A DNA stretch of 64,000 bases from Pseudomonas sp. MH9.2 (GTDB lineage Bacteria; Pseudomonadota; Gammaproteobacteria; Pseudomonadales; Pseudomonadaceae): NCBI RefSeq assembly GCF_034353875.1, contig NZ_CP133784.1, positions 806,001 to 870,000 on the forward strand. Direction: 5' to 3'. Under the pieces are notes generated by a model. That model was given only the letters and a program-made list of their open reading frames with translations, did no database searches and had not been told where the DNA came from. The position numbers were made by a program, and so were the translations under genes. Below are positions 7,791-63,273 of this stretch, piece by piece; position 1 is the stretch's first letter; each line of letters begins with the position of its first letter.

Positions 7791-7835
7791 GTGTGCGCTC
7801 TCTTATTGGAGGCGACGCTCAGGGCGCCGATCAGC

Positions 7836-8456: not shown

Positions 8457-8457
8457 G

Positions 8458-9450: not shown

Positions 9451-9880
9451 CGCTTCACCTGTTTTATTTTTTTGCGAGATAAGTGAGTGCGCGACGACTA
9501 TAGACCCAAAGCCTGCATCGTCTCAATATGTAAATTCATATCCCATATATAGGGAATTACAAGCCATACATAAAGTGCCGACAAACGCGCCTGTACGCAG
9601 CACGTCAGCACTGGCATCATTTCTGCCAAATACGGCATACTGCCCAAGCATTCCCCAAGTTGATCCACCCTCCAATCGGCCCCTGCGCCGAGGGTGGTAA
9701 CTATCCTTAAATTCTTCGCCCGTTCCCTCCCCGTGTGTTCTCTGTCTCTGGCCTGTTGACGCTTTGTCGCGCACAGGTTTCCAGGGTTGTGGTCATGCCG
9801 TGCGCATTGCGTTTGTGCGGCCATTGCCGCGTTGCCAAAAAAGTCGTCAGACCCACTTCTCATCTGCAAGGACAACTGCC
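9451..9880. other. Divergent control region between dgoK and the acyltransferase gene
   Basis: These 430 bp contain no convincing gene. Two overlapping minus-strand frames (9498-9875 and 9523-9774) lack a ribosome site and resemble nothing I know. The AT-rich stretch 9525-9580 contains an imperfect inverted repeat, listed separately, and is the likely place for the dgo promoter. Confidence 0.7.
9530..9560. promoter_or_regulatory. Possible operator upstream of the galactonate operon
   Basis: GTAAATTC (9530-9537) and GGAATTAC (9553-9560) form an inverted repeat with one bulged base, and TCCC/GGGA form an inner pair around ATATATA. The site is 80-110 bp upstream of dgoK. A palindrome of this size could bind the operon's IclR protein, but no IclR consensus is strong enough to prove it. 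Confidence 0.35.
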
Positions 9881-11038
9881 ATGAAGCGATTTCTGGTGCT
9901 CGATAGTTTTCGCGGTCTGTGTGCCTTGGCGGTGGTGATGCATCACTCCCACGCGCTGCGCAGCTTTACTGAACTGACGTTTTTCAAGAACGCTAACTAC
10001 CTCGTCGAGTTCTTCTTCGTCCTCAGCGGCTTTGTGCTTTATCACACCTATGCGAACCGGTTGGGCTCGGTCGAGCAGTTGCGCCGTTTCGTGATCACTC
10101 GCACCTGCCGCCTGTACCCGCTGCACGTGGTGATGCTGGCGGTATTCATCGGCTTCGAAGTATTGAAAGTCGTGGTCGAGCGCTACGGGATGTCCTTCAA
10201 CGCCCCGAGCTTCACCGGCGCCCGGGCGCCCGACGAGATTGTGCCGAACCTGCTGTTGATTCAGTCCTGGTGGCCGAGTTTCAACGCGCTGTCGTTCAAC
10301 TATCCGTCGTGGAGCATCAGCGTCGAATACTACCTGTACCTGATCTTCGGCCTGATCGCCCTGGCCTTGCCGACGCAGGCGCGCAAGGTTTTCGTAGCCA
10401 TCGCGGTACTCGCTTTCCTCGCGCTCTACTTCAAGAGCACGCTGGTAACGGACAATGCGCTGAAAGGTCTGGGCTGTTTTTTTGCGGGGGGCGTTACTTA
10501 CCGGGTATACGCAAAACTGCCAAGCCTGCACCTGAGTCCACTGCTTGGCAGCGCGCTTGAGGTGCTGGTTCTAGGTGTGATCTACCTGATCATGATTTAC
10601 AGCGATACGCCCCAGGATATTCTCCTGAGCCTGCTGTTCTGCGTGGCGATCTGGGTGTTTGCGTTCGAAGCCGGCTGGGTGTCGACGCTGCTGCGAAAAT
10701 CTCTGTTCACCTGGCTTGGCATGCTGTCGTTTTCTATCTATATGACCCACGCAGCGGTGATTTTCGCGATGTCGATCGGGGTGATGATTGTCGCCAAGCT
10801 TACCCACCTGCCGCTGCTGATAGACCTACCCAGCGAAATCGTTGGCGTGGTTATCCGCTATATCGATACCGGCAGCATGGCACTCGACAATCTACTGATG
10901 GTCATTGAAGTGGCGGCGGTGCTGGCTGTTTCGGTGCTGAGCTATCGCCACATCGAACTGCGCGGCATCGCGCTTGGCAAGCGATGGAGCAAGGACCGCT
11001 TGACCGCGGCAAGCCTGGCACCACGCCTTCCCGAATGA
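9881..11038 (+). CDS. Acyltransferase-3 family membrane protein (OafA type)
   Basis: A 385-residue polytopic membrane protein with about ten hydrophobic segments. The N-terminal motif LDSFRGLCALAVVMHH carries the arginine and histidine typical of the acyltransferase-3 family, whose members O-acylate sugars of lipopolysaccharide, exopolysaccharide or other surface glycans. The start at 9881 has AAGGA 8 nt upstream; a longer open frame from 9764 has no ribosome site. It stands alone between dgoK and a bidirectional terminator, so the acceptor sugar cannot be deduced from context. Confidence 0.9.
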   Translation: MKRFLVLDSFRGLCALAVVMHHSHALRSFTELTFFKNANYLVEFFFVLSGFVLYHTYANRLGSVEQLRRFVITRTCRLYPLHVVMLAVFIGFEVLKVVVERYGMSFNAPSFTGARAPDEIVPNLLLIQSWWPSFNALSFNYPSWSISVEYYLYLIFGLIALALPTQARKVFVAIAVLAFLALYFKSTLVTDNALKGLGCFFAGGVTYRVYAKLPSLHLSPLLGSALEVLVLGVIYLIMIYSDTPQDILLSLLFCVAIWVFAFEAGWVSTLLRKSLFTWLGMLSFSIYMTHAAVIFAMSIGVMIVAKLTHLPLLIDLPSEIVGVVIRYIDTGSMALDNLLMVIEVAAVLAVSVLSYRHIELRGIALGKRWSKDRLTAASLAPRLPE

Positions 11039-11068
11039 ATTCGCTCGCTACGCTTTCACACGCGCAAT

Positions 11069-11104
11069 AAAAAACCGCTTCTCAAACGAGAAGCGGTTTT
11101 TTTT
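11069..11104. terminator. Bidirectional terminator between the acyltransferase gene and asd
   Basis: AAAAAACCGCTTCTC and GAGAAGCGGTTTTTT flank a 4-nt AAAC loop, with A and T tracts on both sides, serving the two converging genes. Confidence 0.93.
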
Positions 11105-11119
11105 GAAACAGCTAACGCA

Positions 11120-12232
11120 TTAACGTTCCAGCAGAATCCGCAACATACGACGCAGCGGTTCGGCGGCGCCCCAGAGCAACTGGTCGCCAACAGTGAACGC
11201 GCCCAAGTATTGCGAGCCCATGTTCAGCTTGCGCAGACGTCCCACCGGAATGCTCATTGTCCCGGTTACCGCCGTTGGGCTCAGCTCTTGAATGCTCGCT
11301 TCACGGTGGTTCGGTACCAGCTTCACCCATGGGTTGTGCTGGCTGATCATGCCTTCGATGTCGGCGATTGGCACATCCTTGTTCAGCTTGATGGTCAGCG
11401 CCTGGCTGTGGCAACGCATGGAGCCGATGCGCACGCAGATACCATCGACCGGGATCGGGTTCTTGAAGCGACCCAGGATCTTGTTGGTCTCGGCCTGGCC
11501 TTTCCACTCTTCACGGCTCTGACCGTTCGGCAACTCTTTGTCGATCCACGGAATCAAACTGCCGGCCAATGGCACGCCGAAGTTCTCAGTCGGGAAGGCT
11601 TCGCTGCGCATGGCTTCGGCAACCTTGCGGTCGATGTCGAGGATCGCGCTGGCCGGGTTGGCCAAGTCGTCGGCCACGGCAGCGTGAGTAGCACCCATCT
11701 GCTTGATCAGTTCACGCATGTTCTGCGCGCCGGCACCGGAGGCCGCCTGATACGTCATGACGTTCATCCACTCCACCAGACCGGCTTCGAACAAACCGCC
11801 CAGGCCCATCAGCATCAGGCTGACCGTGCAGTTGCCGCCAATGAAGTTTTTGGTCCCGGCATCGAGCTGCTGGTCGATCACCTTGCGGTTTACCGGGTCC
11901 AGCACGATTACCGCGTCATCCTGCATACGCAGGCTGGAAGCGGCATCGATCCAGTACCCCTGCCAGCCGGCTTCGCGCAGTTTCGGGAAGACCTCATTGG
12001 TGTAGTCGCCACCCTGACAGGTCAGAACCACGTCGAGGGTTTTGAGTTCTTCGATGCTGTAAGCGTCCTTCAGGGGCGCAATATCCTTGCCCACGGCCGG
12101 GCCTTGGCCACCGACGTTGGACGTGGTGAAGAACACCGGCTCGATCAGATCAAAATCCTGCTCTTCCAGCATCCGCTGCATGAGCACGGAACCGACCATA
12201 CCGCGCCAACCGATCAGACCTACACGTTTCAT
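11120..12232 (-). CDS. asd: Aspartate-semialdehyde dehydrogenase
   Basis: This 370-residue enzyme reduces L-4-aspartyl phosphate to aspartate semialdehyde, the branch point to lysine, diaminopimelate, threonine and methionine. The NADP-binding loop [17 protein letters not shown] is at the start. The catalytic cysteine is in [11 protein letters not shown] (about residue 135), and the substrate-binding region around [12 protein letters not shown] is present. Its place behind leuB is the usual one in Pseudomonas, 57 bp downstream on the same strand. Confidence 0.97.
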
Positions 12233-12289
12233 CGCAACTGCACCTTTAACGAAAAAGTGGGCCGCTCCGATAAGAGCGGGCCCGAGATA

Positions 12290-13372
12290 TTACAGATTGA
12301 GCAGCGCGGCGACTACGGCCTCGCCCATTTCCTGCGTACCTACTTTGGCGTTACCAATCGACCAGATGTCGCCGGTACGCAAACCTTGATCCAGTACCAG
12401 GCTCACAGCCCGTTCGATCGCCTCAGCAGCAGCCAGCTGATTGAAGCTGTAACGCAGCATCATCGCGACCGACAGAATCGTTGCCAGCGGGTTGGCAATG
12501 CCCTGCCCTGCGATGTCTGGAGCAGAGCCGTGGCAGGGTTCGTACATGCCCTTACTGTTGGCATCCAGCGACGCCGAAGGCAGCATGCCGATAGAACCGG
12601 TGAGCATCGAAGCCTCGTCTGACAGAATATCGCCGAACAGGTTATCGGTGACGATCACATCGAACTGCTTGGGTGCACGTACCAGTTGCATCGCCGCGTT
12701 GTCGACGTACATGTGGCTCAGCTCGACATCAGGATAATCCTTGGCGACCTGTTCGACCACTTCACGCCAGAGCTGGCTGGATTCCATGACGTTGGCTTTG
12801 TCCACCGAGCACAGTTTCTTGCTGCGAAGCCGGGCCATGTCAAAGCCTACACGGGCGATACGACGGATTTCGCTCTCGCTGTACGGGAGAGTGTTGTAAC
12901 CCTCGCGCTCGCCGTTGTCGAGGGTACGAATACCCCGTGGCGTACCGAAGTAGATACCGCCGGTCAGCTCACGAACGATCAGGATGTCCAGGCCCGACAC
13001 CACTTCCGGTTTCAAGGTGGACGCTTCAGCCAATTGCGGATACAGAATGGCTGGCCGCAGGTTGCCGAACAGTTTCAGCTCGGAGCGAATCTTCAGCAGG
13101 CCTTTTTCCGGACGAATTGCACGGTCCAGCGTGTCCCATTTCGGGCCACCGACGGCACCGAGCAGCACAGCATCGGCAGCGCGGGCGCGGGCCAGGGTTT
13201 CATCGGCCAAAGGCACGCCATACTTGTCGATGGCCGCGCCACCGATCAGGTCATGGCTGAGCACGAAGCCCAACTGAAACTTGTCATTGACCAACTCCAG
13301 CACCTTGACCGCTTCGGCCATGATTTCCGGACCGATACCATCACCTGGGAGAATCAGAATCTGCTTGCTCAT
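12290..13372 (-). CDS. leuB: 3-isopropylmalate dehydrogenase
   Basis: A 360-residue NAD-dependent enzyme that oxidises and decarboxylates 3-isopropylmalate in leucine synthesis. The N-terminus [19 protein letters not shown] and the core motif [19 protein letters not shown] with the metal-binding aspartates are clear. The start at 13372 is preceded by GAGGAA; the frame stays open to 13417 but without a better site. A methyltransferase separates it from leuD and leuC upstream. Confidence 0.97.
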
Positions 13373-13453
13373 ACGTTCCTCAATCCATTTAAACGGCGCG
13401 TGATCGTGCGCCTGCAAAAAGAACCATCACTGCTTTTTATAGAAGCAACAAGA

Positions 13454-14221
13454 CTAACGTTCTGCCCACAACACCAGCACATCGGTGCTGAAGGAGCCGT
13501 CGTCAGTGATCTCAAAATACTCGCGCACTTCTGCACCCATTGCCTCCTGCAACTCACGAATCGCGACACGCAACACCTGTGGCGTGCGCATACGCTCGAC
13601 CCACGAACTGTACTCCAGGTGCAAGCGCTGACGGCTGTGACTGCGGGTGAATAACCCGGCCTCGCTGACATGGCGCAACCACTCACCCGCAGAATAGTCG
13701 CGGACGTGGCTGGTGTCGCGCAGCACTTCAACACTTTGCAGATACGTATCGAACAGCGGACTGCCTGGCGACATGACGTCGATAAACGCCGCAACGCCAC
13801 CCGGTTTCAGCACGCGTCGCACTTCACGCAGGGCCAGGCCCAGATCGCTCCAGTGATGCGCCGAGTAACGGCTGAACACAAAATCGAACTCGCCGTCCTC
13901 GAACGGAAGGCGCTCGGCGGCCCCACAGACCGTTTGCACGTTGCTCAGTCCACGCTCTACCGCCGCGCTGGCGACCACATCGAGCATCTGCTGCGACAGG
14001 TCGTAAGCCACCACCTCGCCCACCGACGACGCCACATTAAAACTCACATGACCGGCGCCACAGCCCAGATCCAGCACTCGCGCATCGCCACGCCCGGCCA
14101 CTTCGGCCTGTAGCAACGCGAACTCGGTGCCTTGAGCGTGCACAGCACTGCTCAGATAGGCCGCTGCCTGTTCACCGAATTGACGCTGGACGACTTGGGT
14201 GTGCGCGGTGTGGGTCATCAT
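13454..14221 (-). CDS. SAM-dependent class I methyltransferase, UbiE/Methyltransf_11 type
   Basis: A 255-residue soluble methyltransferase with SAM motif I VLDLGCGAGHVSF (about residues 45-57) and motif III region LREVRRVLKPGGVAAF (about 115-130). The substrate is unknown. Its place between leuD and leuB is common in pseudomonads; a role in leucine synthesis is not known and not implied by the sequence. AAGGAA lies 6 nt before the first of two adjacent ATG codons. Confidence 0.88.
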   Translation of the reverse strand: MMTHTAHTQVVQRQFGEQAAAYLSSAVHAQGTEFALLQAEVAGRGDARVLDLGCGAGHVSFNVASSVGEVVAYDLSQQMLDVVASAAVERGLSNVQTVCGAAERLPFEDGEFDFVFSRYSAHHWSDLGLALREVRRVLKPGGVAAFIDVMSPGSPLFDTYLQSVEVLRDTSHVRDYSAGEWLRHVSEAGLFTRSHSRQRLHLEYSSWVERMRTPQVLRVAIRELQEAMGAEVREYFEITDDGSFSTDVLVLWAER

Positions 14222-14253
14222 GGAGTTCCTTAATAGGCTTCGACTGTCGGGAC

Positions 14254-14324
14254 GCTATCGCGGGCAAGCCCGCTCCTACAAGAACAGTACGCATTCTGCA
14301 GAAGCGGGCTTGCCCGCGGTCAGC
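14254..14324. repeat. REPIN: inverted pair of REP elements
   Basis: The left REP contains GCGGGCAAGCCCGC (14260-14273) followed by TCCTACA; the right one contains the exact reverse complement GCGGGCTTGCCCGC (14304-14317). The two face each other across about 30 nt, the arrangement of a REP doublet (REPIN) that is mobilised by RAYT transposases. It lies between leuD and the methyltransferase gene, inside an otherwise co-directional set, and could form a stable hairpin in the mRNA. Confidence 0.88.
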
Positions 14325-14341
14325 TTGACGCGGTCTATCAA

Positions 14342-14983
14342 TCAGTCGCGAAACAACCACGGCTGGCTGGCGCGATGCATGCTTTCGAAGCGGGCAATCG
14401 CCTCGCCATCCATCAGCGTCAGACCAATGTCGTCCAGGCCGTTGAGCAGGCAGTGCTTGCGGAACGCATCGATCTCGAAGCTCAAGACTTTGCCGTCAGG
14501 ACGGGTCACGGTCTGCGCCACCAGATCAACGTTCAATTGATAACCCGGCGTGGCCTCGACCTGTTCGAACAACTCATCGACCTCCGCATCGCTGAGGATG
14601 ATCGGCAGCAGACCGTTCTTGAAGCTGTTGTTGAAGAAGATGTCGGCATAGCTCGGCGCAATGATGCTGCGAAAGCCATATTCTTCCAGCGCCCAAGGCG
14701 CGTGTTCACGGCTGGAACCGCAGCCAAAATTCTCGCGAGCCAGTAATACGCTGGCACCTTGATAACGCGCGTTATTGAGCACGAAATCCTTGTTCAATGG
14801 ACGCTTGGAGTTGTCCTGATAAGGTTGCCCCACATCCAGATAGCGCCACTCGTCAAACAGATTAGGACCAAAGCCCGTGCGTTTGATCGATTTGAGAAAC
14901 TGTTTGGGAATGATCTGATCAGTGTCGACGTTGGCACGATCCAAAGGAGCGACGAGGCCGGTGTGCTGAGTAAATGCTTTCAT
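14342..14983 (-). CDS. leuD: 3-isopropylmalate dehydratase, small subunit
   Basis: The 213-residue small subunit of isopropylmalate isomerase, which joins LeuC to convert 2- to 3-isopropylmalate. The N-terminus with [17 protein letters not shown] and the swivelling-domain motif [18 protein letters not shown] are characteristic. It lies 10 bp downstream of leuC on the same strand. Confidence 0.97.
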
Positions 14984-14993
14984 GCTGGGCTCC

Positions 14994-16418
14994 TTAGTGT
15001 TGGATCAAGTCACGAACGTCGACGAATCGACCGTTGACCGCCGCCGCTGCCGCCATGGCAGGGCTGACCAGGTGAGTACGGCCACCGGCGCCTTGACGGC
15101 CTTCGAAGTTACGGTTGGATGTGGACGCGCAATGCTCGCCGGACTCCAAACGGTCCGGGTTCATCGCCAGGCACATCGAGCAGCCCGGTTCACGCCATTC
15201 AAAACCGGCCTCGATGAAAATCTTGTCCAGCCCTTCTTTTTCCGCCTGCGCCTTCACCAGACCCGAGCCTGGCACCACGATGGCCTGTTTGACGGTGGAA
15301 GCAACTTTGCGGCCTTTGGCGATCTCTGCCGCAGCACGCAAGTCTTCGATCCGCGAGTTGGTGCAGGAGCCGATAAACACACGATCCAGCTGAATGTCAG
15401 TGATCGCCTGATTGGCATGCAAGCCCATGTACTTCAACGCGCGCTCGATAGAACCCCGCTTGACCAGATCGGTTTCTTTGGCCGGGTCAGGCACGTTTTG
15501 ATCGACGGCCAACACCATTTCCGGTGAAGTGCCCCAACTGACTTGCGGCTTGATCTGAGCGGCATCGAGCTTGATCACGGTATCGAAGGTGGCGTCGGCA
15601 TCGGACACCAGGTCCTTCCAGGCTTCGACAGCCAAGTCCCACTCCGCACCTTTAGGGGCAAACGGACGACCCTTCACGTAAGCGACCGTTTTTTCATCAG
15701 TCGCCACCAGGCCCACGCGAGCGCCGGCTTCGATGGACATGTTGCAGATGGTCATACGCCCTTCGACGGACAGGTCGCGAATCGCGCTGCCTGCGAACTC
15801 GATAGCATGACCATTGCCGCCCGCCGTACCGATCTTGCCGATAACAGCAAGAACGATGTCTTTGGCCGTGACGCCAAACGGCAATGTGCCTTCGACCGAC
15901 ACCAACATGTTTTTCATTTTCTGGGCGACCAGGCACTGCGTAGCGAGCACATGCTCGACCTCGGAAGTGCCGATGCCATGGGCCAACGCGCCAAACGCAC
16001 CGTGAGTCGAGGTGTGCGAATCGCCGCAGACCACGGTCATACCCGGCAACGTAGCGCCTTGCTCAGGGCCAATGACGTGAACGATGCCCTGACGTGGGTC
16101 ATTCATCTTGAATTCGGTAATGCCATATTCATCGCAGTTGTCGTCAAGGGTCTGCACCTGCAGACGAGACACTTGATCGACGATGGCCTCAATCCCGCCT
16201 TTACGCTCCGGTGTCGTCGGCACGTTATGGTCTGGAGTGGCAATGTTGGCATCGATCCGCCATGGCTTGCGCCCGGCCAGACGCAGACCCTCGAAGGCTT
16301 GCGGCGAGGTCACTTCGTGAATGATGTGACGGTCGATATAAATCAGCGCCGAACCATCGTCGCGCTGTTTGACCAAATGCGAATCCCAGAGCTTGTCGTA
16401 GAGCGTTTTGCCGGCCAT
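14994..16418 (-). CDS. leuC: 3-isopropylmalate dehydratase, large subunit
   Basis: The 474-residue aconitase-fold subunit carrying the 4Fe-4S cluster of isopropylmalate isomerase. [37 protein letters not shown] and [13 protein letters not shown] give the substrate loops and cluster cysteines. The start ATG at 16418 has AGGAA 8 nt upstream, so the longer open frame to 16472 is not used. It is divergent from a LysR regulator, a conserved arrangement in Pseudomonas that suggests LysR control of leuC. Confidence 0.97.
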
Positions 16419-16567
16419 CAGACGTTTCCTCATCAGCTTGTTTCTATGCCGGTTATCGATGACGTGGCTCAATAACCCTTTGGCTTGTGAGGAAGATCCT
16501 ATGGGGTATGATTAAATAACTCAAATTCATATTTTTTATGCTTTGGATAACCAATTGGAATCCTAAA

Positions 16568-53216: not shown

Positions 53217-53244
53217 TTTACATACAAACGATAACGATTATCAT
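53217..53244 (+). promoter_or_regulatory. Promoter of the siderophore operon
   Basis: TTTACA (53217-53222) and TATCAT (53239-53244) with a 16-bp spacer. The Fur box covers the -10 element, as at classical Fur-repressed promoters. Confidence 0.7.
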
Positions 53245-53248
53245 TGGC
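53230..53248. promoter_or_regulatory. Fur box
   Basis: GATAACGATTATCATTGGC matches 15 of 19 positions of the Fur consensus GATAATGATAATCATTATC. It predicts repression of the whole siderophore operon when iron is plentiful. Confidence 0.9.
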
Positions 53249-53277
53249 GATATGTTTCACATTACGGAATATGCCCA

Positions 53278-54048
53278 GTGATCAGGAAGTCACCCGTTTT
53301 TTCTCGCCTCAATGGCGGCGAAAGCGTCTACGGTTTACTCAATTCAGTCCCCTCCCCCCTGCTGTGCGAAATGATTGCCAGCGCCGGCTATCACTTCGTC
53401 ATTCTCGATATGGAACACCTGCTGCGGTCCGGCGATGAGCTGATGCATTGCATACGCGCTTGCGAAGCAACAGGGATTTCGGCCTGGCTGCGTATCCCGG
53501 AAGTCGACGTCAAACTGATTGGCCGTGCGCTGGACGCAGGCGCCGAAGCCATCGTTCTGCCGCGTGTCGAAAGCGCCGACGAAGTCGCCCGCGCCCTGGA
53601 AGCGGCGTATTTCCCACCGCTGGGCAAGCGCGGAATCAGCGGCGGTCGCATCACTGGTTTTGGCCATGTGTCATTGCCCGACTATATCGAACTGGCGAAT
53701 CGCCAACGCCCCATCGTACCGATGATCGAAAGCGCCGCAGGGCTTCGAGCCCTGCCCGACATTCTCGCGCTGCCCGGCGTTGGCATGGTGCTCGAAGGCG
53801 CGCTCGATCTCGCCCTCGATTTGCAACTGGGTCCTGATCCATTGCACCCGCGTGTCTGGCAAGCCCTACAAGGCATGGCCGATGCCTGCGCCGCCGCTGA
53901 AGTTCCCTTTTGCGCAAATCCACGCTCGCCCGAACAACATGCCTGGTGGCGTGACCGGGGGATTCGCAGCTTTCTCGCTGGCGAAGACCGCGGCCTGCTG
54001 CACAACGCGTTGAAAGCGCGCTTGAACAGCCTTCAATTTCCCAACTGA
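53278..54048 (+). CDS. HpcH/HpaI-family protein, possible SbnG-like citrate synthase of the siderophore operon
   Basis: A 256-residue TIM-barrel protein of the HpcH/HpaI aldolase family. The family residues are present: H47 (LDMEH), R72 (WLRIPE), metal-binding E151 (PMIESAAG) and D177 (ALDLAL). It is the first gene behind the Fur box. In staphyloferrin B clusters a protein of this family, SbnG, makes citrate from oxaloacetate and acetyl-CoA for the siderophore; the same role here would supply the citrate core of the product. That assignment is inference, and a true aldolase is the alternative. The start is probably GTG at 53278, with GGAA about 8 nt upstream; no in-frame ATG is available nearby. 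Confidence 0.82.
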   Translation: MIRKSPVFSRLNGGESVYGLLNSVPSPLLCEMIASAGYHFVILDMEHLLRSGDELMHCIRACEATGISAWLRIPEVDVKLIGRALDAGAEAIVLPRVESADEVARALEAAYFPPLGKRGISGGRITGFGHVSLPDYIELANRQRPIVPMIESAAGLRALPDILALPGVGMVLEGALDLALDLQLGPDPLHPRVWQALQGMADACAAAEVPFCANPRSPEQHAWWRDRGIRSFLAGEDRGLLHNALKARLNSLQFPN

Positions 54049-54065
54049 GCCTGAACGAAGTCCAG

Positions 54066-56150
54066 ATGAAAACAACAAACTATCTGTTTGCATTTCCCTT
54101 CAGCCTGCTCTCTCTGAGCATCTGCCAAACCGTACTGGCCAACGACCCGCCTGCCGATTACTCGCTCGCCCCTATGGTGATCAAGGGTGACGTGCTCGGT
54201 ACCGCCAGCGATCCGGAAGTGCGGACCTACTCCGGTAGCCGCAGCGTGATCGACGCCGCCGACTTGAGGAAAGGCAGTGTCCGCGGGATTGACGATGCCT
54301 TGCAGCGCGTGCCCGGCGTCAAGATTTTCGATGAGACCGGCACCGGCGCCTTGCCGCAGATTTCCGTACGCGGTCTATACGAGAGCCGAAGCGGGCGCAT
54401 TCAGGCCTTGTCCGATGGTATTCCTCTGGCCTTGGCGCCCTATGGCCAGACGGGGTTGTCGCTGTTTCCGATGACTCTGGCGACAATCGACCGCGTCGAC
54501 ATCGTGCGCGGCGGCGCGGCAGTGCAGTACGGCCCGAACAATGTCGGCGGCGTGATCAACTTCATCAGCGCGCCGATTCCCCATGAAATGCAGACCACTA
54601 TTCAGGAGCGCACCACCTTCGCCGCCGGCGGGCGCCAACTGTTCGACACCTACCTGGGGACCGGTGGCTACCTGACCGACAACTTCGGCCTGCAACTGGA
54701 CGTCAATACCATTCAGGGCGAATACGGCCGCGAGCACTCCGATACCGACATCCAGAACTACCGTCTGCGAGGTCAATGGAACATCGATGATGACCGCTCA
54801 CTGAGTTTTGGCGTGCAGCACTACACGGCCGATATGGACCTGGCAGGCGCCCTGAGTGTCAAGGACTACAAGGACGATCCGCGCCAGTCGACCCGTCCCC
54901 TAGACCGCTTCGAAGGCGATACCGACCGGGTCTGGGGCACTTACACGCAACAGCTTGGCGCCATGGGCCCTTTCGATTCAGTCGAGTTCAGCTGGACCAA
55001 CTTCGCCCACAAAAGCTACCGCAACTTCGTTGTTGGCCTGCCGTTCACCCCGGACGGTACCGCCGTGACCCAGCAGGACGGTCCGCGTGACTTCAAGGTC
55101 TGGGGCAGCGAACCGCGCCTGAGCATGAGCATCGACGGTGACAAGGTCGGTCAAACCTGGGTGCTGGGTGCCCGCTACGTCAAGGAAGACATCGATTACC
55201 GGGTTGATCGCGAAGCCCTCGGCACGGGCGTGACCAGCGTCTTCCGTGACTGGCATTTCAACGACGAAGCCAAAGCCGCCTACCTGAGCAACGCCATCAG
55301 CCTGTTCGACCGGCGCCTGACCATCACCCCGGGCATTCGCTACGAAAACGCGCGAATGGACTATAGCGACGGGATCACCGGTTTTCAGCACAGCAACCTG
55401 GCCGAAGAATGGTTGCCCGGCCTGACCGTGGGTTTCCAGGCCAACGACGATTGGTTCGTGTACGCCAACGCCCAGCGCTCATTGCGTCCACCGCAGATCA
55501 CCCAAATCGTCAAGGAAGGCGACGTGGGCGCGGAAATCGCCTGGAACTACGAGACCGGCGTGCGCTACACGCCATGGCAAGGCTTGCGCGTCGATGTCGG
55601 TCTGTACCGCATCGATTTCGATAATCAGATCGAGTACAACGCCACCACCGACCGTTACGTGAACCTGGGCAGCACCCGCCATCAGGGTATCGAGACTGAA
55701 CTGTTCTGGACCCCGTCGGTGACCCCGAACCTGGACCTGCATGTCAGCTACGCCTACCTCGATGCCAAGCAGCGAGCCGGTGACTTCAAAGACAACGAAG
55801 TGCCTTTCGCGTCCAGACACCAGTTCAACGCCGAAGGTCGTTATCACTTCTCCCAGCACTGGACCTACAGCCTTGATGGCCTCTACGTCAGCAGTGCCTA
55901 CACCGATGCGGCCAACAGCGGCGCGGAAAACGCCAGTGCATCGGTTGGCAGGCTACCGGCCTATTGGGTCTTCAACACAGCGCTTGAGCGCGAATTCAAG
56001 CTTGACGACAAAAGCGTGCTGACCACATCCGTCGGCATCAGCAACCTGCTCAACCGCGAATACTACTTCCGTGGTATCGACACCAGCCCATGGGGTCGCC
56101 AGCCGGCCCCGGAGCGCGCCCTCACCCTCGGCGCAAATTACCGCTTCTAA
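54066..56150 (+). CDS. pvuA: TonB-dependent ferric siderophore receptor
   Basis: A 694-residue outer-membrane receptor: signal peptide (cleavage after VLA, about residue 25), plug domain (about 45-165; ALQRVPGVKIFDETGTG, VDIVRGGAAVQYGPNNVGG) and a 22-strand barrel ending in the aromatic LGANYRF. There is no N-terminal signalling domain, so control by a FecI-type sigma factor is unlikely and Fur control suffices. It begins 17 bp after the aldolase-family gene and precedes the biosynthetic genes, so the ferric form of the locus's own siderophore is the expected ligand. The symbol is by synteny with vibrioferrin loci. Confidence 0.9.
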   Translation: MKTTNYLFAFPFSLLSLSICQTVLANDPPADYSLAPMVIKGDVLGTASDPEVRTYSGSRSVIDAADLRKGSVRGIDDALQRVPGVKIFDETGTGALPQISVRGLYESRSGRIQALSDGIPLALAPYGQTGLSLFPMTLATIDRVDIVRGGAAVQYGPNNVGGVINFISAPIPHEMQTTIQERTTFAAGGRQLFDTYLGTGGYLTDNFGLQLDVNTIQGEYGREHSDTDIQNYRLRGQWNIDDDRSLSFGVQHYTADMDLAGALSVKDYKDDPRQSTRPLDRFEGDTDRVWGTYTQQLGAMGPFDSVEFSWTNFAHKSYRNFVVGLPFTPDGTAVTQQDGPRDFKVWGSEPRLSMSIDGDKVGQTWVLGARYVKEDIDYRVDREALGTGVTSVFRDWHFNDEAKAAYLSNAISLFDRRLTITPGIRYENARMDYSDGITGFQHSNLAEEWLPGLTVGFQANDDWFVYANAQRSLRPPQITQIVKEGDVGAEIAWNYETGVRYTPWQGLRVDVGLYRIDFDNQIEYNATTDRYVNLGSTRHQGIETELFWTPSVTPNLDLHVSYAYLDAKQRAGDFKDNEVPFASRHQFNAEGRYHFSQHWTYSLDGLYVSSAYTDAANSGAENASASVGRLPAYWVFNTALEREFKLDDKSVLTTSVGISNLLNREYYFRGIDTSPWGRQPAPERALTLGANYRF

Positions 56151-56227
56151 CTGCGCACCCGCGCCCCTGTAAAACCAGTCGCCCAACCTGCTTGGGACGG
56201 GCGACTGCTGCCCCCAGGAAACTCGTC

Positions 56228-57427
56228 ATGCACCGTCCTCTCGTCATCCTCAGCCACGTCACCCACGCCGCCGTTACCGAAGGTTTTCTGCCCGCCGCCC
56301 GCAAGCGCGGACTGTCAGTGGTGCTGATCAGCGACCATGCCCATGAGCATCGGCGCCTGCTCGCCACGTCCGACTTTCCCGCGCAGGACTTACTGATCCT
56401 CGAGTGCGACGTGTTCAATCCCCTTGCGGTGATTGAACTGATCAACGCTCATGGCCTGCGCCCTGCAGCAGTGTTTTCCAACAGCGATCACCTGCAAACC
56501 GCCACTGCGTTAGTGGCGGAAACCTTCAACGTGCCCGGCAAGGACTGGCTGATGTGTCACTGGGCAAAAAACAAGGCGGTCATGCGTGAACGCATGCAGG
56601 ATCTGGGCTTGCCCGGCCCCTGGTTTCATGTGCTGACCGCTGGCAGCGCGGTGCCCGACGATGCAGTATTTCCGCTAGTGGTGAAACCCACCCAAGGCGT
56701 GGCCAGCCTTGATGTGCGCTTGTGCCACAACGCCGACGAGCTGAGCGATTACTGCGCCCGGTTCTGGCAGCAACAACCCGGTCGTGCGTTGTTGCTGGAG
56801 GCCTACATGGAAGGCCCACTGTTTACCCTCGAGACTCTCGGCGACGGTCAGCGGTTGCAAGCCATCGGCGGCTTTGATGTCAGCCTGTCGCCACCCCCGC
56901 ACTTCGTCGAACTCGCTGCGCGCTGGAACGGCTCATTGAGCGTTAACCATCGGGCGGGAGCGCTGGCTCAGGTCGCTGCTTTTGGCATCAACTTCGGCGT
57001 GTGCCACAGCGAATTCATCCTCACTGCCGAAGGACCGGTGCTGGTGGAAATCAACTACCGCAGTATCGGCGACGGCCGCGAGTTCCTTCTCGACCGCCTG
57101 CTGCCCCAAGGCTGGTTCAACCGCATCCTCGGCGTGCACCTTGACGAACCACTGGTAGATGCCCAGCCCGGCCTGGCGCAAGCGCTGGTGCATTATCTGG
57201 TCGCCGACACACCTGGCCGCTTGCAGCAGGCTTCCAGCAGTTTTCGTTACGAGCAGGACAATCACTGGAGCGACTACCGTGCGCTGCGCGAGATTGGCGA
57301 CGACATTCACGTGAGTCACTCGAATAAGGATTATCTGGGCGTACTGCGCCTGATCGCCCCGGATACTGCCAGTCTGGACGCACGTTTCGCCGCCACATTG
57401 GCCGATCTGCGCTGGGTGATGGCATGA
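56228..57427 (+). CDS. pvsA: ATP-grasp amide ligase of siderophore synthesis, PvsA-like
   Basis: A 399-residue ATP-grasp enzyme: N-terminal pre-ATP-grasp domain (about 1-100), FPLVVKPTQGVASLDVRL as ATP-binding lysine strand (about residues 150-167), EAYMEGPLF as the hinge region and VEINYRSIGDGRE as metal-binding end. Such enzymes join a carboxylate to an amine through an acyl phosphate. In the vibrioferrin pathway PvsA is thought to join alanine to 2-oxoglutarate. AGGAAA precedes the ATG at 56228; the frame runs from 56090 inside the receptor gene. It overlaps the next gene by ATGA. Confidence 0.87.
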   Translation: MHRPLVILSHVTHAAVTEGFLPAARKRGLSVVLISDHAHEHRRLLATSDFPAQDLLILECDVFNPLAVIELINAHGLRPAAVFSNSDHLQTATALVAETFNVPGKDWLMCHWAKNKAVMRERMQDLGLPGPWFHVLTAGSAVPDDAVFPLVVKPTQGVASLDVRLCHNADELSDYCARFWQQQPGRALLLEAYMEGPLFTLETLGDGQRLQAIGGFDVSLSPPPHFVELAARWNGSLSVNHRAGALAQVAAFGINFGVCHSEFILTAEGPVLVEINYRSIGDGREFLLDRLLPQGWFNRILGVHLDEPLVDAQPGLAQALVHYLVADTPGRLQQASSSFRYEQDNHWSDYRALREIGDDIHVSHSNKDYLGVLRLIAPDTASLDARFAATLADLRWVMA

Positions 57428-59202
57428 GCGTTGTGGCGCAGGATGCTGATCACGCAGCCATCAGCCAACGCATTATCGATTGCTGCCTGCGCGAAGATAT
57501 TCGCGGGCTGCTCAGCCAAGGCATCGTCCAGCACCTGCCCACCGAACTGCACGAACACTGGACCGCAACCGTCAGTCCTTACTGGCTGCGCATCGCCCAC
57601 CTGGACGCCGATGAACTCTGGCTGCCGGTTCACCCAGGCGGCCCGTTGCAGACCTGGAGCACGTCCAGCCATGCCTGGCTCTGCCAGCAAGACGGGCACG
57701 TCCGCATCGAGCACGGTTACGCACGCTGGCTCGAACAGTTGAGCAACGGCCTGGACGACGCCAGCCTTGAGCTGTTTGCCGCGTACCGCAAAGAAGCCGA
57801 CTGCGCCGTGCACCATCGCGCGCTGTGTCATGCAGCCTATCAAGAACACGCGACCGAACTGAGCGACATCCTCGACAAGCCCGCCTGGGACCAACGCCTG
57901 ATCGGTATCGACCGACTCGCCAGCTACCTGGACCATCCGTATTACCCTACCGCCCGCGCCAAAAGTGGCTTCGACAGCACAGCCCTCAAACGCTACGCCC
58001 CGGAGTTCGCCCCGCGCTTCAAACTCAATTGGCTGGCGCTGCCAAATGCGGCCCTGACGTTGAGCAGTTCGCCGCCCAAACATTGGCCGAGCTTTGTCGA
58101 GCTGGGTCTGAAACAGAGCCTCGAAACCAGCCATACCCTGCTACCGGTGCATCCGCTGACGTGGCTAGAGCTGGAAAAATACGGGTTACCCGAAGGCACG
58201 ATCAAGGCACCGCACAGCGCTATGGACGTTGAGCCGACCCTGTCGGTGCGTACCGTAATGTGCGTCGAGCGACCGCACTGGCACATCAAACTACCGTTGC
58301 TAGTGACCACCCTGGGCGCCCGCAACCTGCGCCTGATCAAACCCAGCACGCTGTATGACGGCCATTGGTTTCAGACCACGCTGCAAGCACTGGCTAAACG
58401 CGATCCTCAGCTGGGCATGCGCTATCTGCACGTTGATGAGGAACATGGCGGGCATGCCGATGAAAGCCGCCACCTGGCCTATATTGCGCGTCACTACCCC
58501 GGCGAACTGGGCGTCGCCACACTGGTGCCGGTCGCCGGCCTCGCCAGCCCGTTGCCCGATGGTCGACTGTTCGTCGAGCAACTGGTCGAGCGCTTCTACC
58601 AGGGCTCACTGCAACGCTGGCTCGAAGATTATCTGGACCTGCTGCTGCACGTGCACCTGCGCTTGTGGCTGGGTTATGGCATCGCGCTGGAAGCCAATCA
58701 GCAGAACGCCGTGCTGATCTTCGAGGCTGATCGCCCACTGCGTTTGCTGATGAAAGACAACGACGCCGCACGCCTCTGGCCCGAGCGCTTCGCCGCAGCC
58801 TGCCCCGACCTTGCGCAGCGTCCTGCAGACTTGCGTGACGAGCGCATCCGCGTCAACGATGCCCAGCCACTGGCCGAGATGTTCTGCACCATCACCTTGC
58901 AACTGAACATCGTCGCGGTGCTGGAAGCGATCATTGCCGCCGACCTGGCACCCCGCGGGCCACTCTACGCCACCTTGCGCCAGCGCCTGATCGATTGCAT
59001 CGGGCAACTAGAGGGCGAAGGCCTGGACTGCACTGAAGCCAAGCGCGTTTTGCTGGACAGCCCGAAACTACCGGTGAAATACCTGCTCAGTGCCGGCAGC
59101 TTGTTCAGCAAAGCATACTCAGGCGCCCAGGACATCAACAAGTTCTATGGCTACAGCGCGGCAAACTTCCTGCGGGAGGCGCACCCGTGCAACGCAGACT
59201 GA
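57424..59202 (+). CDS. pvsB: IucA/IucC-family siderophore synthetase 1, PvsB-like
   Basis: A 592-residue NRPS-independent siderophore (NIS) synthetase that adenylates a citrate or 2-oxoglutarate-type carboxylate and couples it to an amine or alcohol. LLPVHPLTWLELE and EPTLSVRTVM form the ATP site, and the C-terminal FhuF-like part has LLMKDNDAARL. The usual ExHxQN element reads EANQQN here (58690-58707), with histidine replaced by asparagine. By order it equals PvsB, which performs the final condensation in vibrioferrin synthesis. ATGA overlap at the start; 16-bp overlap with the exporter gene at the end. Confidence 0.9.
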   Translation: MSVVAQDADHAAISQRIIDCCLREDIRGLLSQGIVQHLPTELHEHWTATVSPYWLRIAHLDADELWLPVHPGGPLQTWSTSSHAWLCQQDGHVRIEHGYARWLEQLSNGLDDASLELFAAYRKEADCAVHHRALCHAAYQEHATELSDILDKPAWDQRLIGIDRLASYLDHPYYPTARAKSGFDSTALKRYAPEFAPRFKLNWLALPNAALTLSSSPPKHWPSFVELGLKQSLETSHTLLPVHPLTWLELEKYGLPEGTIKAPHSAMDVEPTLSVRTVMCVERPHWHIKLPLLVTTLGARNLRLIKPSTLYDGHWFQTTLQALAKRDPQLGMRYLHVDEEHGGHADESRHLAYIARHYPGELGVATLVPVAGLASPLPDGRLFVEQLVERFYQGSLQRWLEDYLDLLLHVHLRLWLGYGIALEANQQNAVLIFEADRPLRLLMKDNDAARLWPERFAAACPDLAQRPADLRDERIRVNDAQPLAEMFCTITLQLNIVAVLEAIIAADLAPRGPLYATLRQRLIDCIGQLEGEGLDCTEAKRVLLDSPKLPVKYLLSAGSLFSKAYSGAQDINKFYGYSAANFLREAHPCNAD

Positions 59203-60332
59203 TCGCCAGTGTATTGCTTGGCCACTATCTATCGGCCTTCACCGCCCTCGGCATTCCGTTGTACCTGCCACGCATCCTCGCCGACCTGGCGCCGGATGCG
59301 CCGGGCTGGAGCATCGGTGTGTTGTTTGTCCTGCCGACCCTGTGTACCGCTCTGACGGCGCCACTCTGGGGTCGCTGGGCGGATAGACGGGGCTGTCGCC
59401 TGTCCTTGCTGCGTGCCCATGCCGGACTGTTTACGGGCTTTCTCCTGGCCGGGTTCAGTACCAACCTGCCGATGTTCGTGCTGGCCTTGATCATTCAAGG
59501 CACCTTTGGCGGGGCGATGGCCGCATCCAATGCCTACCTGGCGACCCAGTTCAAGGACGGCGACCTGTCTCGGGCCCTGAACTGGACTCAATACTCGGCA
59601 CGCCTGGCCATGATCAGCGGCCCCATTCTGCTCGGTCTTATGACGGCGCAAGGGTTGGGACTGGAGCTGTATCGCTACCTGGCCTGGTTACCGTTACTGG
59701 CGTTCGTGATGATCCTGCCGTTGCCCGCCGATACACCCCGTCATCAGGCGAATGCGACCACAGCCGCCGGCCCACTTAGCCAACTGCCGACGGACATGCC
59801 ACGTCTGCTGCTGGTGCAATTCCTGTTCAGCTTCGCCATGGTCGTCACCTTCCCTTATTTCGTCCCTTACGGCGAAGCACTGGGCATTGGCAACGACGCG
59901 CTGATCGGCCTCCTCTACAGCCTGCCGCATCTGGTTTACCTCATCGCCCTGCCTTGGGTCCAACGGCATGCCAGCAACTTGCTGCTGCCCGGCCTCGGGC
60001 TGCTGGCCGTGAGCAATGCCCTGCAGTTCTGGAGCAGCCAGGCCGAGCCTTTATTTGCCCTGCGCCTGCTCAGCGGTGCAGGAATGTTGCTGGGCTTTGT
60101 CGGCTTGCATCGCTGCCTGAGCCAACGCAGCCGCCAAGGCAGTGCCGGGCGCATGTTTGGCTGGTTCGATGCCAGCGGTAAATGGGCCGGCACAGCTGCC
60201 GGTGTGACCGCCGGGCTGGTCAGTCAGACCTGCGGCATCACCTCACCTTTTCTCGTTGCCTGTCTGGCCGCCGTTGCTGCGATGGCCTTGGCACGCCCCC
60301 TACTCATGACCTCGCGGGAGATACCAGCATGA
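59187..60332 (+). CDS. pvsC: MFS siderophore exporter, PvsC-like
   Basis: A 381-residue MFS protein with 12 predicted helices; PLWGRWADRRGCRLSLL (about residues 57-73) is the motif-A loop between helices 2 and 3. The GTG start at 59187 lies inside the previous gene and has GGGAGG upstream. It is embedded between the two synthetase genes, as PvsC is, so secretion of the apo-siderophore to the periplasm is the clear role. Confidence 0.92.
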   Translation: MQRRLIASVLLGHYLSAFTALGIPLYLPRILADLAPDAPGWSIGVLFVLPTLCTALTAPLWGRWADRRGCRLSLLRAHAGLFTGFLLAGFSTNLPMFVLALIIQGTFGGAMAASNAYLATQFKDGDLSRALNWTQYSARLAMISGPILLGLMTAQGLGLELYRYLAWLPLLAFVMILPLPADTPRHQANATTAAGPLSQLPTDMPRLLLVQFLFSFAMVVTFPYFVPYGEALGIGNDALIGLLYSLPHLVYLIALPWVQRHASNLLLPGLGLLAVSNALQFWSSQAEPLFALRLLSGAGMLLGFVGLHRCLSQRSRQGSAGRMFGWFDASGKWAGTAAGVTAGLVSQTCGITSPFLVACLAAVAAMALARPLLMTSREIPA

Positions 60333-62092
60333 CCCTTGCTCTGACCACCGCTTCCCTGCATGAACGCGCTCTCGATGGTGAAGCCCAACGGCACGCCATT
60401 GAATGCCTGCTCAATTGTTATCTGCGTGAATACGCCCTGCCACGCGACGAGGCGAGCCTGGACTATCGTGCTCAGGATCTGCCCATGAGCCTGCGTCAAC
60501 TCAATGGCCAGTGCATCAGCATCCGGCTGCCCAGCGGGCGACTGGTGGTGCGAGTCGACCGCGCGAGTGTGCTCGGTCGTTGCCGCTTTGTCAGCGCCCC
60601 CTATTTCAAGGGCAATGGGCACAGCTGGCACCCGTTGAACGCGACCGAACTGGCGCGTCTGCTGTGCGTGCCGCTGAGCCAGCCGGACCGTGTGGGCGAG
60701 ATGTTGCAGCAGGTCGATAACAGCCTGCAGATCACCCGGACCTTTCTCCGGCATACCCGCGCCGATCGCGATCAACCGACTGACAGCCTGCTGGCTTCAG
60801 AACAGCATCAGATTTGGGGGCACGCCCTGCATCCAACTCCCAAGAGCCGCGAAGGCATCTCGCAAAATGCCCTGTTGGCCTGCTCGCCGGAAGTCGGCGC
60901 GTGCTTCGAGCTGCACTGGTTTCGTGTTGATCCGGCGTTGATCCAGCATCAAGGTGACGATCCCCGAGAGACCCTGTATCAGCTGTGTGGTCGAAACGAT
61001 CTGTACCCTTGCCACCCGTGGGAAGTCGAGCGGATTCTGGCCGACCCGCTGGTCCGTCGCGCACAACAGCGTGGCCTGCTGGAGTACCTCGGCCCTCAAG
61101 GCCTGGCGCTGTACCCGACCTCGTCGGTACGCACCCTCTATCACCCCGAGCTTGCCTATTTCCTGAAATTTTCGATGCATGTGCGGCTGACCAATTGCGT
61201 GCGCAAGAACGCCTGGTACGAACTGGACAGCGCGGTCGCCCTGACCCGCTTGCTCGCACCGGTGATGGCCGAGCTGGCCCACGCACTTCCGGATTTTCTG
61301 CTGATGCCGGAACCGGCCGCCAGCACCCTGGACCTGAGCAGTCTTGGCACCCAGGAGCAGGCCCGCGAAGTCACCGAATGCTTCGGCATCCTCTACCGCC
61401 AGAACCTGGATGAGGCCACCCGCGAGCGCTACCAACCGCAAGTGGCCATGGCGCTATTCACCTGGGATCTGCAAGGTCGTAGCGTTTGTCAAAGCCTGGT
61501 GCAGCAATGTGCCGAGCGTCTTCGTATCGACGTGGCCGAGGCGACCCTGCGCTGGCTCGACGGCTATGCCCGTCAACTGCTCGGCGGGGTAATGCATTGC
61601 CTGTTCCGTCAGGGCGTGGTGCTGGAGCCACACTTGCAGAACACCCTGCTGGGTTTCGACGCCGACGGCTTGCCTTGTCGGGTCTGGATTCGCGACCTGG
61701 AGGGCACCAAGCTGGTGGCCAGCCATTGGGCACCGGAACGACTCAGCGAACTCAACGAGCGCACCCGCGCCTCGCTGTACTACAACGAGGATAAGGCCTG
61801 GCAGCGCGTCGCCTACTGCGCGCTGGTGAACAACCTGGGCGAAGCGATCTTCCATTTGGCCAACGCCGATTCAGGGCTGGAAAACCAACTGTGGATGCAT
61901 ATCGGCACGCTGTTGCAGGCACAACGAGCGGTGCTGGATGACCCCGTGCAGCTGCGCGAGTTATGTGCAGGGGCACCGCTGCCCAGCAAGGAAAACTTCA
62001 TGACCCGGCTGATGATGCGTGCCGACCGCGAAGCAGGCTACACCGCCCTCCCCAGCCCGCTGTTCACTGCTCGCGCGAGGGCCCGTTCATGA
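60329..62092 (+). CDS. pvsD: IucA/IucC-family siderophore synthetase 2, PvsD-like
   Basis: A 587-residue NIS synthetase with an intact set of motifs: YPCHPWEVERIL, YPTSSVRTLYH, KFSMHVRLTN, LEPHLQNTLL (the ExHxQN element) and RDLEGTKL. In vibrioferrin synthesis PvsD couples citrate to L-serine. It is coupled to its neighbours by ATGA overlaps on both sides. Together with synthetase 1 and the ATP-grasp enzyme it gives three bond-forming enzymes, the number the vibrioferrin scheme needs. Confidence 0.92.
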   Translation: MTLALTTASLHERALDGEAQRHAIECLLNCYLREYALPRDEASLDYRAQDLPMSLRQLNGQCISIRLPSGRLVVRVDRASVLGRCRFVSAPYFKGNGHSWHPLNATELARLLCVPLSQPDRVGEMLQQVDNSLQITRTFLRHTRADRDQPTDSLLASEQHQIWGHALHPTPKSREGISQNALLACSPEVGACFELHWFRVDPALIQHQGDDPRETLYQLCGRNDLYPCHPWEVERILADPLVRRAQQRGLLEYLGPQGLALYPTSSVRTLYHPELAYFLKFSMHVRLTNCVRKNAWYELDSAVALTRLLAPVMAELAHALPDFLLMPEPAASTLDLSSLGTQEQAREVTECFGILYRQNLDEATRERYQPQVAMALFTWDLQGRSVCQSLVQQCAERLRIDVAEATLRWLDGYARQLLGGVMHCLFRQGVVLEPHLQNTLLGFDADGLPCRVWIRDLEGTKLVASHWAPERLSELNERTRASLYYNEDKAWQRVAYCALVNNLGEAIFHLANADSGLENQLWMHIGTLLQAQRAVLDDPVQLRELCAGAPLPSKENFMTRLMMRADREAGYTALPSPLFTARARARS

Positions 62093-63273
62093 GTTTGCCG
62101 ACACGCGTCACCCAGGCCATCGGCCAATTGCGCGAGCAACAGCAAACACCGCTCTGTGCTTACGTCTATGATCTGGTCGCGCTGGAGCAGCACGTTCGGA
62201 ACATGCGTGAAACGCTGCCCGCCAACTGCGAGCTGTTCTATGCCGCCAAGGCCAACCCGGAAGCACCGATCCTGCGAACCCTGGCGCCGCTGGTAGACGG
62301 CTTCGAGGCCGCGTCCGGTGGTGAGTTGCGCTGGCTGTATGAGCAATGCCCAGGGCATTTGCTGATTTTCGGCGGCCCCGGCAAACTCGACAGTGAGCTG
62401 GAAATCGCCATGGACTACCGGATTTCGGCCTTTCACGTCGAGAGCCTGACAGAGTTACGCAGCCTGGCGCGCATCGCTGCCAGACGGCGCCAACGGACGC
62501 CGGTCCTGCTGCGCCTGAACCTGAAACTGGCTGAAGCACCCGATAGCCGTCTGGTGATGGGCGGTAAACCGACCCCCTTCGGCCTGGACGAAGACGCATT
62601 GGACGAAGCGCTGAAGCTGTTGCGTGATGAGCCCTGGCTGGAACTGCAGGGCCTGCATTTTCATGTGCTGTCTCATCAGCTTGATGTGGGCGCTCACCTG
62701 AGACTGATCCGCAGCTACTGTCGCACCTTCAGCCAGCTCTGCGCCGAACACGGTCTGCAGCTGCCCCTGCTCAACGTCGGAGGCGGCATGGGCATTAATT
62801 ACCAGGACCCGCAGAACTCGTTCGACTGGACGACATTCTGCCAAGGGCTCAAGGCATTGATCGCGGAAGAAGGCATGGGCGATACGCGCATTCGCTTCGA
62901 GATCGGCCGTTTTATCAGCGCGGCCTGCGGCTACTACGTGATGCAAGTCCTGGACATCAAACGCAGCCATGGTCAGTACTTCGCCATTGGCCGGGGTAGC
63001 ACCCACCACTTCCGGACACCGGCGGCCCAGGGGCATGACCATCCTTTTGTCGTGATACGGGGCCAGCAACCCGCGCAGTTGCAGAATCAGCAGGTTACCC
63101 TGGTCGGCCAGCTGTGTACGCCAAAAGATGTGCTGGCAAGCCAGCAAACAGTCACCGCCCTCGCGATTGATGACCTGCTGGTGTTCACCCTGGCAGGCGC
63201 CTATGCCTGGAACATTTCGCACCGGGACTTTCTGATGCATGAACCACCCCAGATGCTGTTTCTAACGACATAA
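62089..63273 (+). CDS. pvsE: PLP-dependent decarboxylase of siderophore synthesis, PvsE/SbnH-like
   Basis: A 394-residue fold-type III PLP enzyme of the diaminopimelate decarboxylase group. The PLP lysine is K54 in FYAAKANPE, HFHVLSHQLDV is the barrel histidine segment, and LLNVGGGMGINY binds the cofactor phosphate. Siderophore relatives decarboxylate a citryl-amino acid (SbnH, citryl-diaminopropionate; PvsE, citryl-serine to citryl-ethanolamine). It is the last gene of the operon; no strong terminator follows in the 56-bp gap before the converging gene. Confidence 0.92.
   Translation: MSLPTRVTQAIGQLREQQQTPLCAYVYDLVALEQHVRNMRETLPANCELFYAAKANPEAPILRTLAPLVDGFEAASGGELRWLYEQCPGHLLIFGGPGKLDSELEIAMDYRISAFHVESLTELRSLARIAARRRQRTPVLLRLNLKLAEAPDSRLVMGGKPTPFGLDEDALDEALKLLRDEPWLELQGLHFHVLSHQLDVGAHLRLIRSYCRTFSQLCAEHGLQLPLLNVGGGMGINYQDPQNSFDWTTFCQGLKALIAEEGMGDTRIRFEIGRFISAACGYYVMQVLDIKRSHGQYFAIGRGSTHHFRTPAAQGHDHPFVVIRGQQPAQLQNQQVTLVGQLCTPKDVLASQQTVTALAIDDLLVFTLAGAYAWNISHRDFLMHEPPQMLFLTT

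Follow-up and report, generated by a model that had tools for sequence, protein, structure and literature searches.

A vibrioferrin-type siderophore operon of Pseudomonas sp. MH9.2 headed by a predicted SbnG-type citrate synthase gene

Seven tightly packed genes in Pseudomonas sp. MH9.2 raise the question of which siderophore they make and of what a gene of the HpcH/HpaI family, placed first among them, contributes to it. The genes span positions 53278–63273, on the + strand, of a 64,000-nt stretch of DNA (the window) from a host genome of 5.58 Mb on a single contig, and they follow one another in the order HpcH/HpaI protein, TonB-dependent receptor, ATP-grasp ligase, IucA/IucC synthetase, major facilitator superfamily (MFS) transporter, IucA/IucC synthetase, and pyridoxal phosphate (PLP)-dependent decarboxylase. 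This is the order given in an earlier note, made from the sequence alone, which placed the genes behind a Fur box, proposed vibrioferrin or a close relative as the product, and assigned citrate supply to the first gene; open reading frames, Pfam matches for six genes, and alignment of the ATP-grasp protein with PvsA confirm it. Genes, order, family ties, box, and conserved linkage are observed here, and from them we infer catalytic steps, product, and regulation: the cluster is probably a Fur-repressed operon that serves synthesis, export, and re-uptake of vibrioferrin, with a first gene that would encode a dedicated SbnG-type citrate synthase independent of the tricarboxylic acid (TCA) cycle.

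The affinities of the biosynthetic enzymes point to a vibrioferrin-type product. In particular, the ATP-grasp ligase, the first of two NIS (nonribosomal peptide synthetase (NRPS)-independent siderophore) synthetases, the MFS transporter, the second NIS synthetase, and the PLP decarboxylase stand in the vibrioferrin order, and the five biosynthesis and export genes, with a receptor gene in the cluster, match the arrangement in Vibrio parahaemolyticus, whose vibrioferrin cluster is pvsABCDE with pvuA (Tanabe 2003, cited in PMC4465626 and PMC5812596). Compared with reference clusters from plasmid records (two pvs, one achromobactin-type acs from Sodalis, and two sbn-type), PvsB scores 498 bits with Vibrio fortis PvsB versus 95 bits with the best non-pvs synthetase, PvsD scores 451 bits with pvs versus 251 bits with the Sodalis AcsD, and PvsE scores 468 bits with pvs versus 320 bits with the best protein outside pvs. 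Both synthetases and the decarboxylase are nearer to their pvs counterparts than to those of the acs and sbn clusters, and the in silico outcome that would have spoken against the earlier note, synthetases closest to those of a different siderophore, did not appear.

The same comparison, together with gene number, rules out two other products. Staphyloferrin B is excluded by synthetase similarity, by the presence of two rather than three IucA/IucC genes (the only two in the genome, both in the operon), and by the absence of sbnA and sbnB that the earlier note had pointed out: queries with SbnA from Pseudonocardia and SbnB from Agrobacterium gave no match at E ≤ 1e-3 in the 64-kb window, the part of the genome searched. 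Achromobactin is excluded by synthetase similarity and by the number of IucA/IucC genes; its clusters contain three synthetases and, in most cases, a diaminobutyrate aminotransferase (AcsF), neither of which was found at this cluster. A close variant of vibrioferrin, made by the same enzyme set from another amino acid or acyl donor, is improbable; substrate is not fixed by enzyme family, and PvsA is only 46–47% identical to the V. fortis and Cupriavidus proteins, but PvsA, PvsB, PvsD, and PvsE are 72, 68, 74, and 76% identical to those of the Azotobacter vinelandii CA locus and 74, 70, 75, and 76% identical to those of the Pseudomonas fragi F1801 locus, and both species are cited as vibrioferrin makers in passages of PMC9164167 and PMC6372532. 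For Xanthomonas campestris, part of PMC5130282 reports vibrioferrin measured by high-performance liquid chromatography.

A Fur-like box precedes the operon. Scored against GATAATGATAATCATTATC, which we take to be the Fur consensus, the box matches at 15 of 19 positions, is the single best match in the 64 kb (next best, 13/19), and ends 29 bases ahead of the first gene. A match of at least 12/19 occurs in 74 of 77 stretches upstream of homologous loci versus 75 of 1540 random stretches from the same loci; the 77 come from 80 named pvs loci, three loci lacking an HpcH match being left out, and include one contig-end fragment (L070) whose stretch is not truly upstream. The window-best match and its conservation in homologous loci uphold the Fur box of the earlier note.

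The first gene product resembles SbnG more than it resembles the aldolases of its family. Specifically, its best solved relative is SbnG (PDB 4tv5), the citrate synthase of staphyloferrin B, matched over the whole length; in a tree it falls on the SbnG side of the split from aldolases with branch support of 97/99, in a set in which the program flags long branches; and it has signature residues in common with SbnG that aldolases lack, with SbnG differing from it at 8 of 25 compared positions. Curated aldolase cut-offs are not reached: 104.8 versus 368.8 bits for HpaI, 93.5 versus 406.75 bits for GarL, and 71.7 versus 441 bits for PRK10128 (rhamnonate aldolase). The proposal of an SbnG-like protein thus holds in silico, by sequence, tree, signature, and fold, and the gene product most likely makes citrate when iron is short. 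SbnG reportedly falls into one clade with homologues encoded in other siderophore clusters (Kobylarz, 2014).

Conserved catalytic residues were dropped as proof of citrate synthesis because aldolases have the same residues; E151, the residue mutated in 4tv6, is present in the HpcH protein but also in aldolases and does not discriminate. Identity of fold and of catalytic and metal-ligand residues is likewise what an ordinary class II pyruvate aldolase, in the operon by chance and with citrate coming from GltA alone, would present, and such an enzyme would also fit a genome with two citrate-synthase-fold genes and the existence of pvs clusters that have no HpcH gene. We nevertheless consider it unlikely: tree, signature residues, and family cut-offs disfavour an ordinary aldolase, the nearest solved relative points to SbnG as well, and SbnG-type genes lie inside citrate-siderophore clusters in 26 contexts beyond the 77 pvs loci (nine plasmid records and 15 plus two genome loci), versus two copies outside an intact cluster. 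In Staphylococcus aureus, a strain without the genes for the TCA citrate synthase and aconitase still had measurable intracellular citrate when treated with an iron chelator, owing to SbnG, according to part of PMC11315280, and a passage of a review (PMC12096840) presents SbnG as a source of citrate that does not depend on the TCA cycle. In its own cluster, SbnG works alongside SbnA, SbnB, and three synthetases (a passage of PMC9301485), an arrangement unlike that of the operon here.

With an SbnG-type citrate synthase as first enzyme, the operon would work as follows. As iron falls, Fur would dissociate from its site at 53230, allowing transcription of the operon. The HpcH/HpaI-fold enzyme would make citrate from oxaloacetate and acetyl-CoA, and PvsD would couple citrate to serine, as AcsD does; that AcsD (2w02) is the best solved relative of PvsD fits this first step. 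PvsE, like AcsE, would decarboxylate the PvsD product to ethanolamine, and PvsA and PvsB would add alanine and 2-oxoglutarate, their roles in the vibrioferrin pathway. PvsC would export vibrioferrin, and the TonB receptor would return ferric vibrioferrin. Iron shortage would lower the iron enzymes of the cycle, and an own citrate supply would free siderophore output from TCA flux, as for SbnG.

The operon is typical rather than peculiar, and an HpcH gene is usual in the sampled relatives. A scan of genome contigs with a PvsA alignment gave 556 relatives, of which the best 80 were kept, a set that leans towards window-like clusters. An HpcH gene lies in the locus in 77 of these 80 named PvsA loci (in L070 only as the contig-end fragment); of the other three, two are from Marinomonas and one, L074, is a short contig. 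Among 298 genomes of the genus, 21 carry PvsA, and the same 21 hold the 21 best HpcH profile scores (383–409 bits), each gene being on the same contig and strand as PvsA and about 3 to 3.5 kb from it, start to start, as coordinates compared by eye. These counts (77/80 loci and 21/21 genomes) led us to reject the own HpcH gene as a peculiarity of this operon.

Other citrate-siderophore clusters, of achromobactin and staphyloferrin-B type, also carry SbnG-type genes. Thirty further HpcH genes of the genus sample score 352–369 bits (the next scores 188), and all ten of those fetched sit between AcsC and AcsA in achromobactin-type clusters. Five genes besides that of the window exceed 270 bits among 398 genomes of the phylum: two in pvs clusters, two in acs clusters, and one in an SbnA/SbnB-type cluster. 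Five genes at 175–206 bits (two from the phylum sample and three from the genus sample) have no such cluster within the roughly 9 kb fetched on each side (a shorter stretch where one contig ends). Six of 369 genomes of the class carry PvsA; besides the window's own, two have an HpcH gene after pvsE, and three, from one family, have none. Plasmid records, hand-picked from 40 listed of 692 matches, include pvs clusters with the gene (Pantoea soli, Cupriavidus necator H16, and two Rhodococcus) and pvs clusters without it (two Vibrio and Piscirickettsia salmonis). The Vibrio and Piscirickettsia plasmids, to which that search was confined, gave no HpcH match; neither Marinomonas genome has an SbnG-type gene, the only match, at 167 bits, being in one of the two.

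The two copies outside an intact cluster were seen on plasmids. On the Pseudomonas mandelii JR-1 plasmid (L028, 11001–15652), a Tn3-family transposase comes after an HpcH gene and a partial receptor gene, and the 22.8-kb stretch gave no further pvs match; judged by this gene content, it is a cluster cut by a transposon. On Acinetobacter soli plasmid pGFJ1 (L134, 9001–9735), an unannotated SbnG-like sequence with an in-frame stop lies next to the gene for a TonB receptor, in a stretch that has no annotated IucA/IucC gene.

The HpcH gene has largely travelled with the pvs genes. Across the 81 of 86 loci that have all six proteins (L037, L070, L074, L079, and L103 were dropped), pairwise HpcH distances correlate with those of PvsA–PvsE at 0.92–0.95, versus 0.94–0.98 for the Pvs proteins among themselves, with shared species history contributing. 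In trees of PvsA+B+D (33 and 30 hand-chosen rows, quick method, Rhodococcus outgroup), the HpcH-less clusters of two Vibrio, two Marinomonas, and a Piscirickettsia-like group nest inside the carriers and require two changes. A single shared loss is rejected by the approximately unbiased (AU) test (p 9e-6), a value to be read with the long Piscirickettsia branch, the quick method, and a grouping already seen on an earlier tree in mind. The two changes look like two losses, one in the Vibrio/Marinomonas line and one in the Piscirickettsia line, a count that by itself does not separate loss from gain.

We therefore lean, with some reserve, towards the five-gene Vibrio operon being a reduced form: the original cluster would have had a citrate synthase independent of the TCA cycle, like the achromobactin and staphyloferrin-B-type clusters, and the Vibrio/Marinomonas and Piscirickettsia lines would have lost it independently and would rely on the TCA enzyme. 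Separate recruitment of the gene by several lineages, in place of loss in these two, is a less probable history; the place of HpcH in the cluster varies (first gene, divergent, directly before pvsA, or last after pvsE), and Rhodococcus copies group in the tree with a Pseudonocardia staphyloferrin-B-type copy, but the distance correlation and the nesting with two changes oppose it. The varying position and the Rhodococcus/Pseudonocardia grouping make some exchange between clusters likely. If the Vibrio operon is indeed reduced, all three families of citrate and 2-oxoglutarate siderophores would have a built-in citrate supply in common.

Several loci bear on gain and loss of the gene. In L178 and L179, the HpcH copy after pvsE scores higher with an achromobactin copy than with that of the window, which hints that siderophore clusters have exchanged the gene. 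In one genome of the genus that carries pvs, the HpcH copy (G198:C1:1423878-1424636) is interrupted by an in-frame TAG, possibly through recent loss. An HpcH-less pvs cluster (L182, genome G617, 7511–16470), in which receptor, PvsA, PvsB, and PvsC matches come in pieces, looks as if it were decaying. A Psychrobacter vibrioferrin cluster, listed with pvsA–E only in part of PMC8907978, could be a third case without an HpcH gene.

Vibrioferrin clusters of Pseudomonas, Azotobacter, and Xanthomonas are already in print, and the operon here is of this known kind; the reading of the Vibrio operon as reduced is the freshest part. The Azotobacter, Pseudomonas, and Xanthomonas pvs/xss clusters have the same genes, mostly in the same order with HpcH first, and show no clear difference. 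The V. parahaemolyticus cluster would differ in that here there is one seven-gene operon with the SbnG-type gene first, absence of HpcH being read from the two other Vibrio plasmid clusters. Accounts of pvs in Azotobacter, Pseudomonas, and Xanthomonas, in the passages that list the genes, name pvsA–E and the receptor and omit the HpcH gene; the word "aldolase" is absent from the text of the Xanthomonas vibrioferrin paper (PMC5130282). An "aldolase", acsB, is tabulated in achromobactin clusters in part of PMC8907978, likewise an SbnG-type gene within an NIS siderophore cluster. In a search that reached few subscription journals, we found no paper joining vibrioferrin with HpcH in Pseudomonas, or with SbnG and citrate synthase. 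Our results suggest a function for a gene that in Pseudomonas, Azotobacter, and Xanthomonas is named aldolase or 4-hydroxy-2-oxovalerate aldolase, and they make it possible to ask why a private citrate synthase, placed behind a Fur-like box, is present in only some vibrioferrin makers.

A search of the host genome found no NRPS condensation domain (PF00668), and the genome seems to be without a pyoverdine-type assembly line. Vibrioferrin may therefore be the main siderophore of the strain, as far as a search for this one kind of siderophore machinery can tell, and a deletion phenotype would then be easy to read.

Table 1. Predicted features of the operon, in window coordinates
Feature	Position	Strand	Basis
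Fur-box-like operator (predicted)	53230..53248		15/19 to Fur consensus
SbnG-type HpcH/HpaI-fold protein, predicted citrate synthase; GTG start	53278..54048	+	Pfam, SbnG comparison, tree, signature residues
TonB-dependent siderophore receptor, place of PvuA	54066..56150	+	PF00593, PF07715; TIGR01783 above cut-off
PvsA, ATP-grasp ligase	56228..57427	+	Alignment with proteins named PvsA
PvsB, IucA/IucC NIS synthetase	57424..59202	+	PF04183, PF06276; 47% identical to V. fortis PvsB
PvsC, MFS exporter (predicted)	59187..60332	+	PF07690; 43% to V. fortis
PvsD, IucA/IucC NIS synthetase	60329..62092	+	PF04183; AcsD 2w02, 222 bits; 42% to V. fortis PvsD
PvsE, PLP-dependent decarboxylase	62089..63273	+	PF02784, PF00278; 58% to V. 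fortis PvsE, 47% to AcsE

The last five genes of the operon overlap. Pfam confirms six of the seven genes; the ATP-grasp protein scores 26.7 bits with PF13535, just below the cut-off of 27, and its identity as PvsA was taken from alignment for that reason. For genes 3, 6, and 7, the mechanical list of open reading frames has longer upstream starts; the ATGs at 56228, 60329, and 62089 were chosen instead because they lie at gene junctions and, for PvsA, because relatives start there. The receptor scores 364 bits with the FecA model, below its cut-off of 1100. The flanking genes appear unrelated; those upstream encode a thiamine-diphosphate enzyme and alpha/beta hydrolases, and downstream lies a gene for an HD-domain protein. 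The nearest named relative in pvs proteins is Pseudomonas sp. UMAB-08, with 96% identity in HpcH and 95% in PvsA+B+D.
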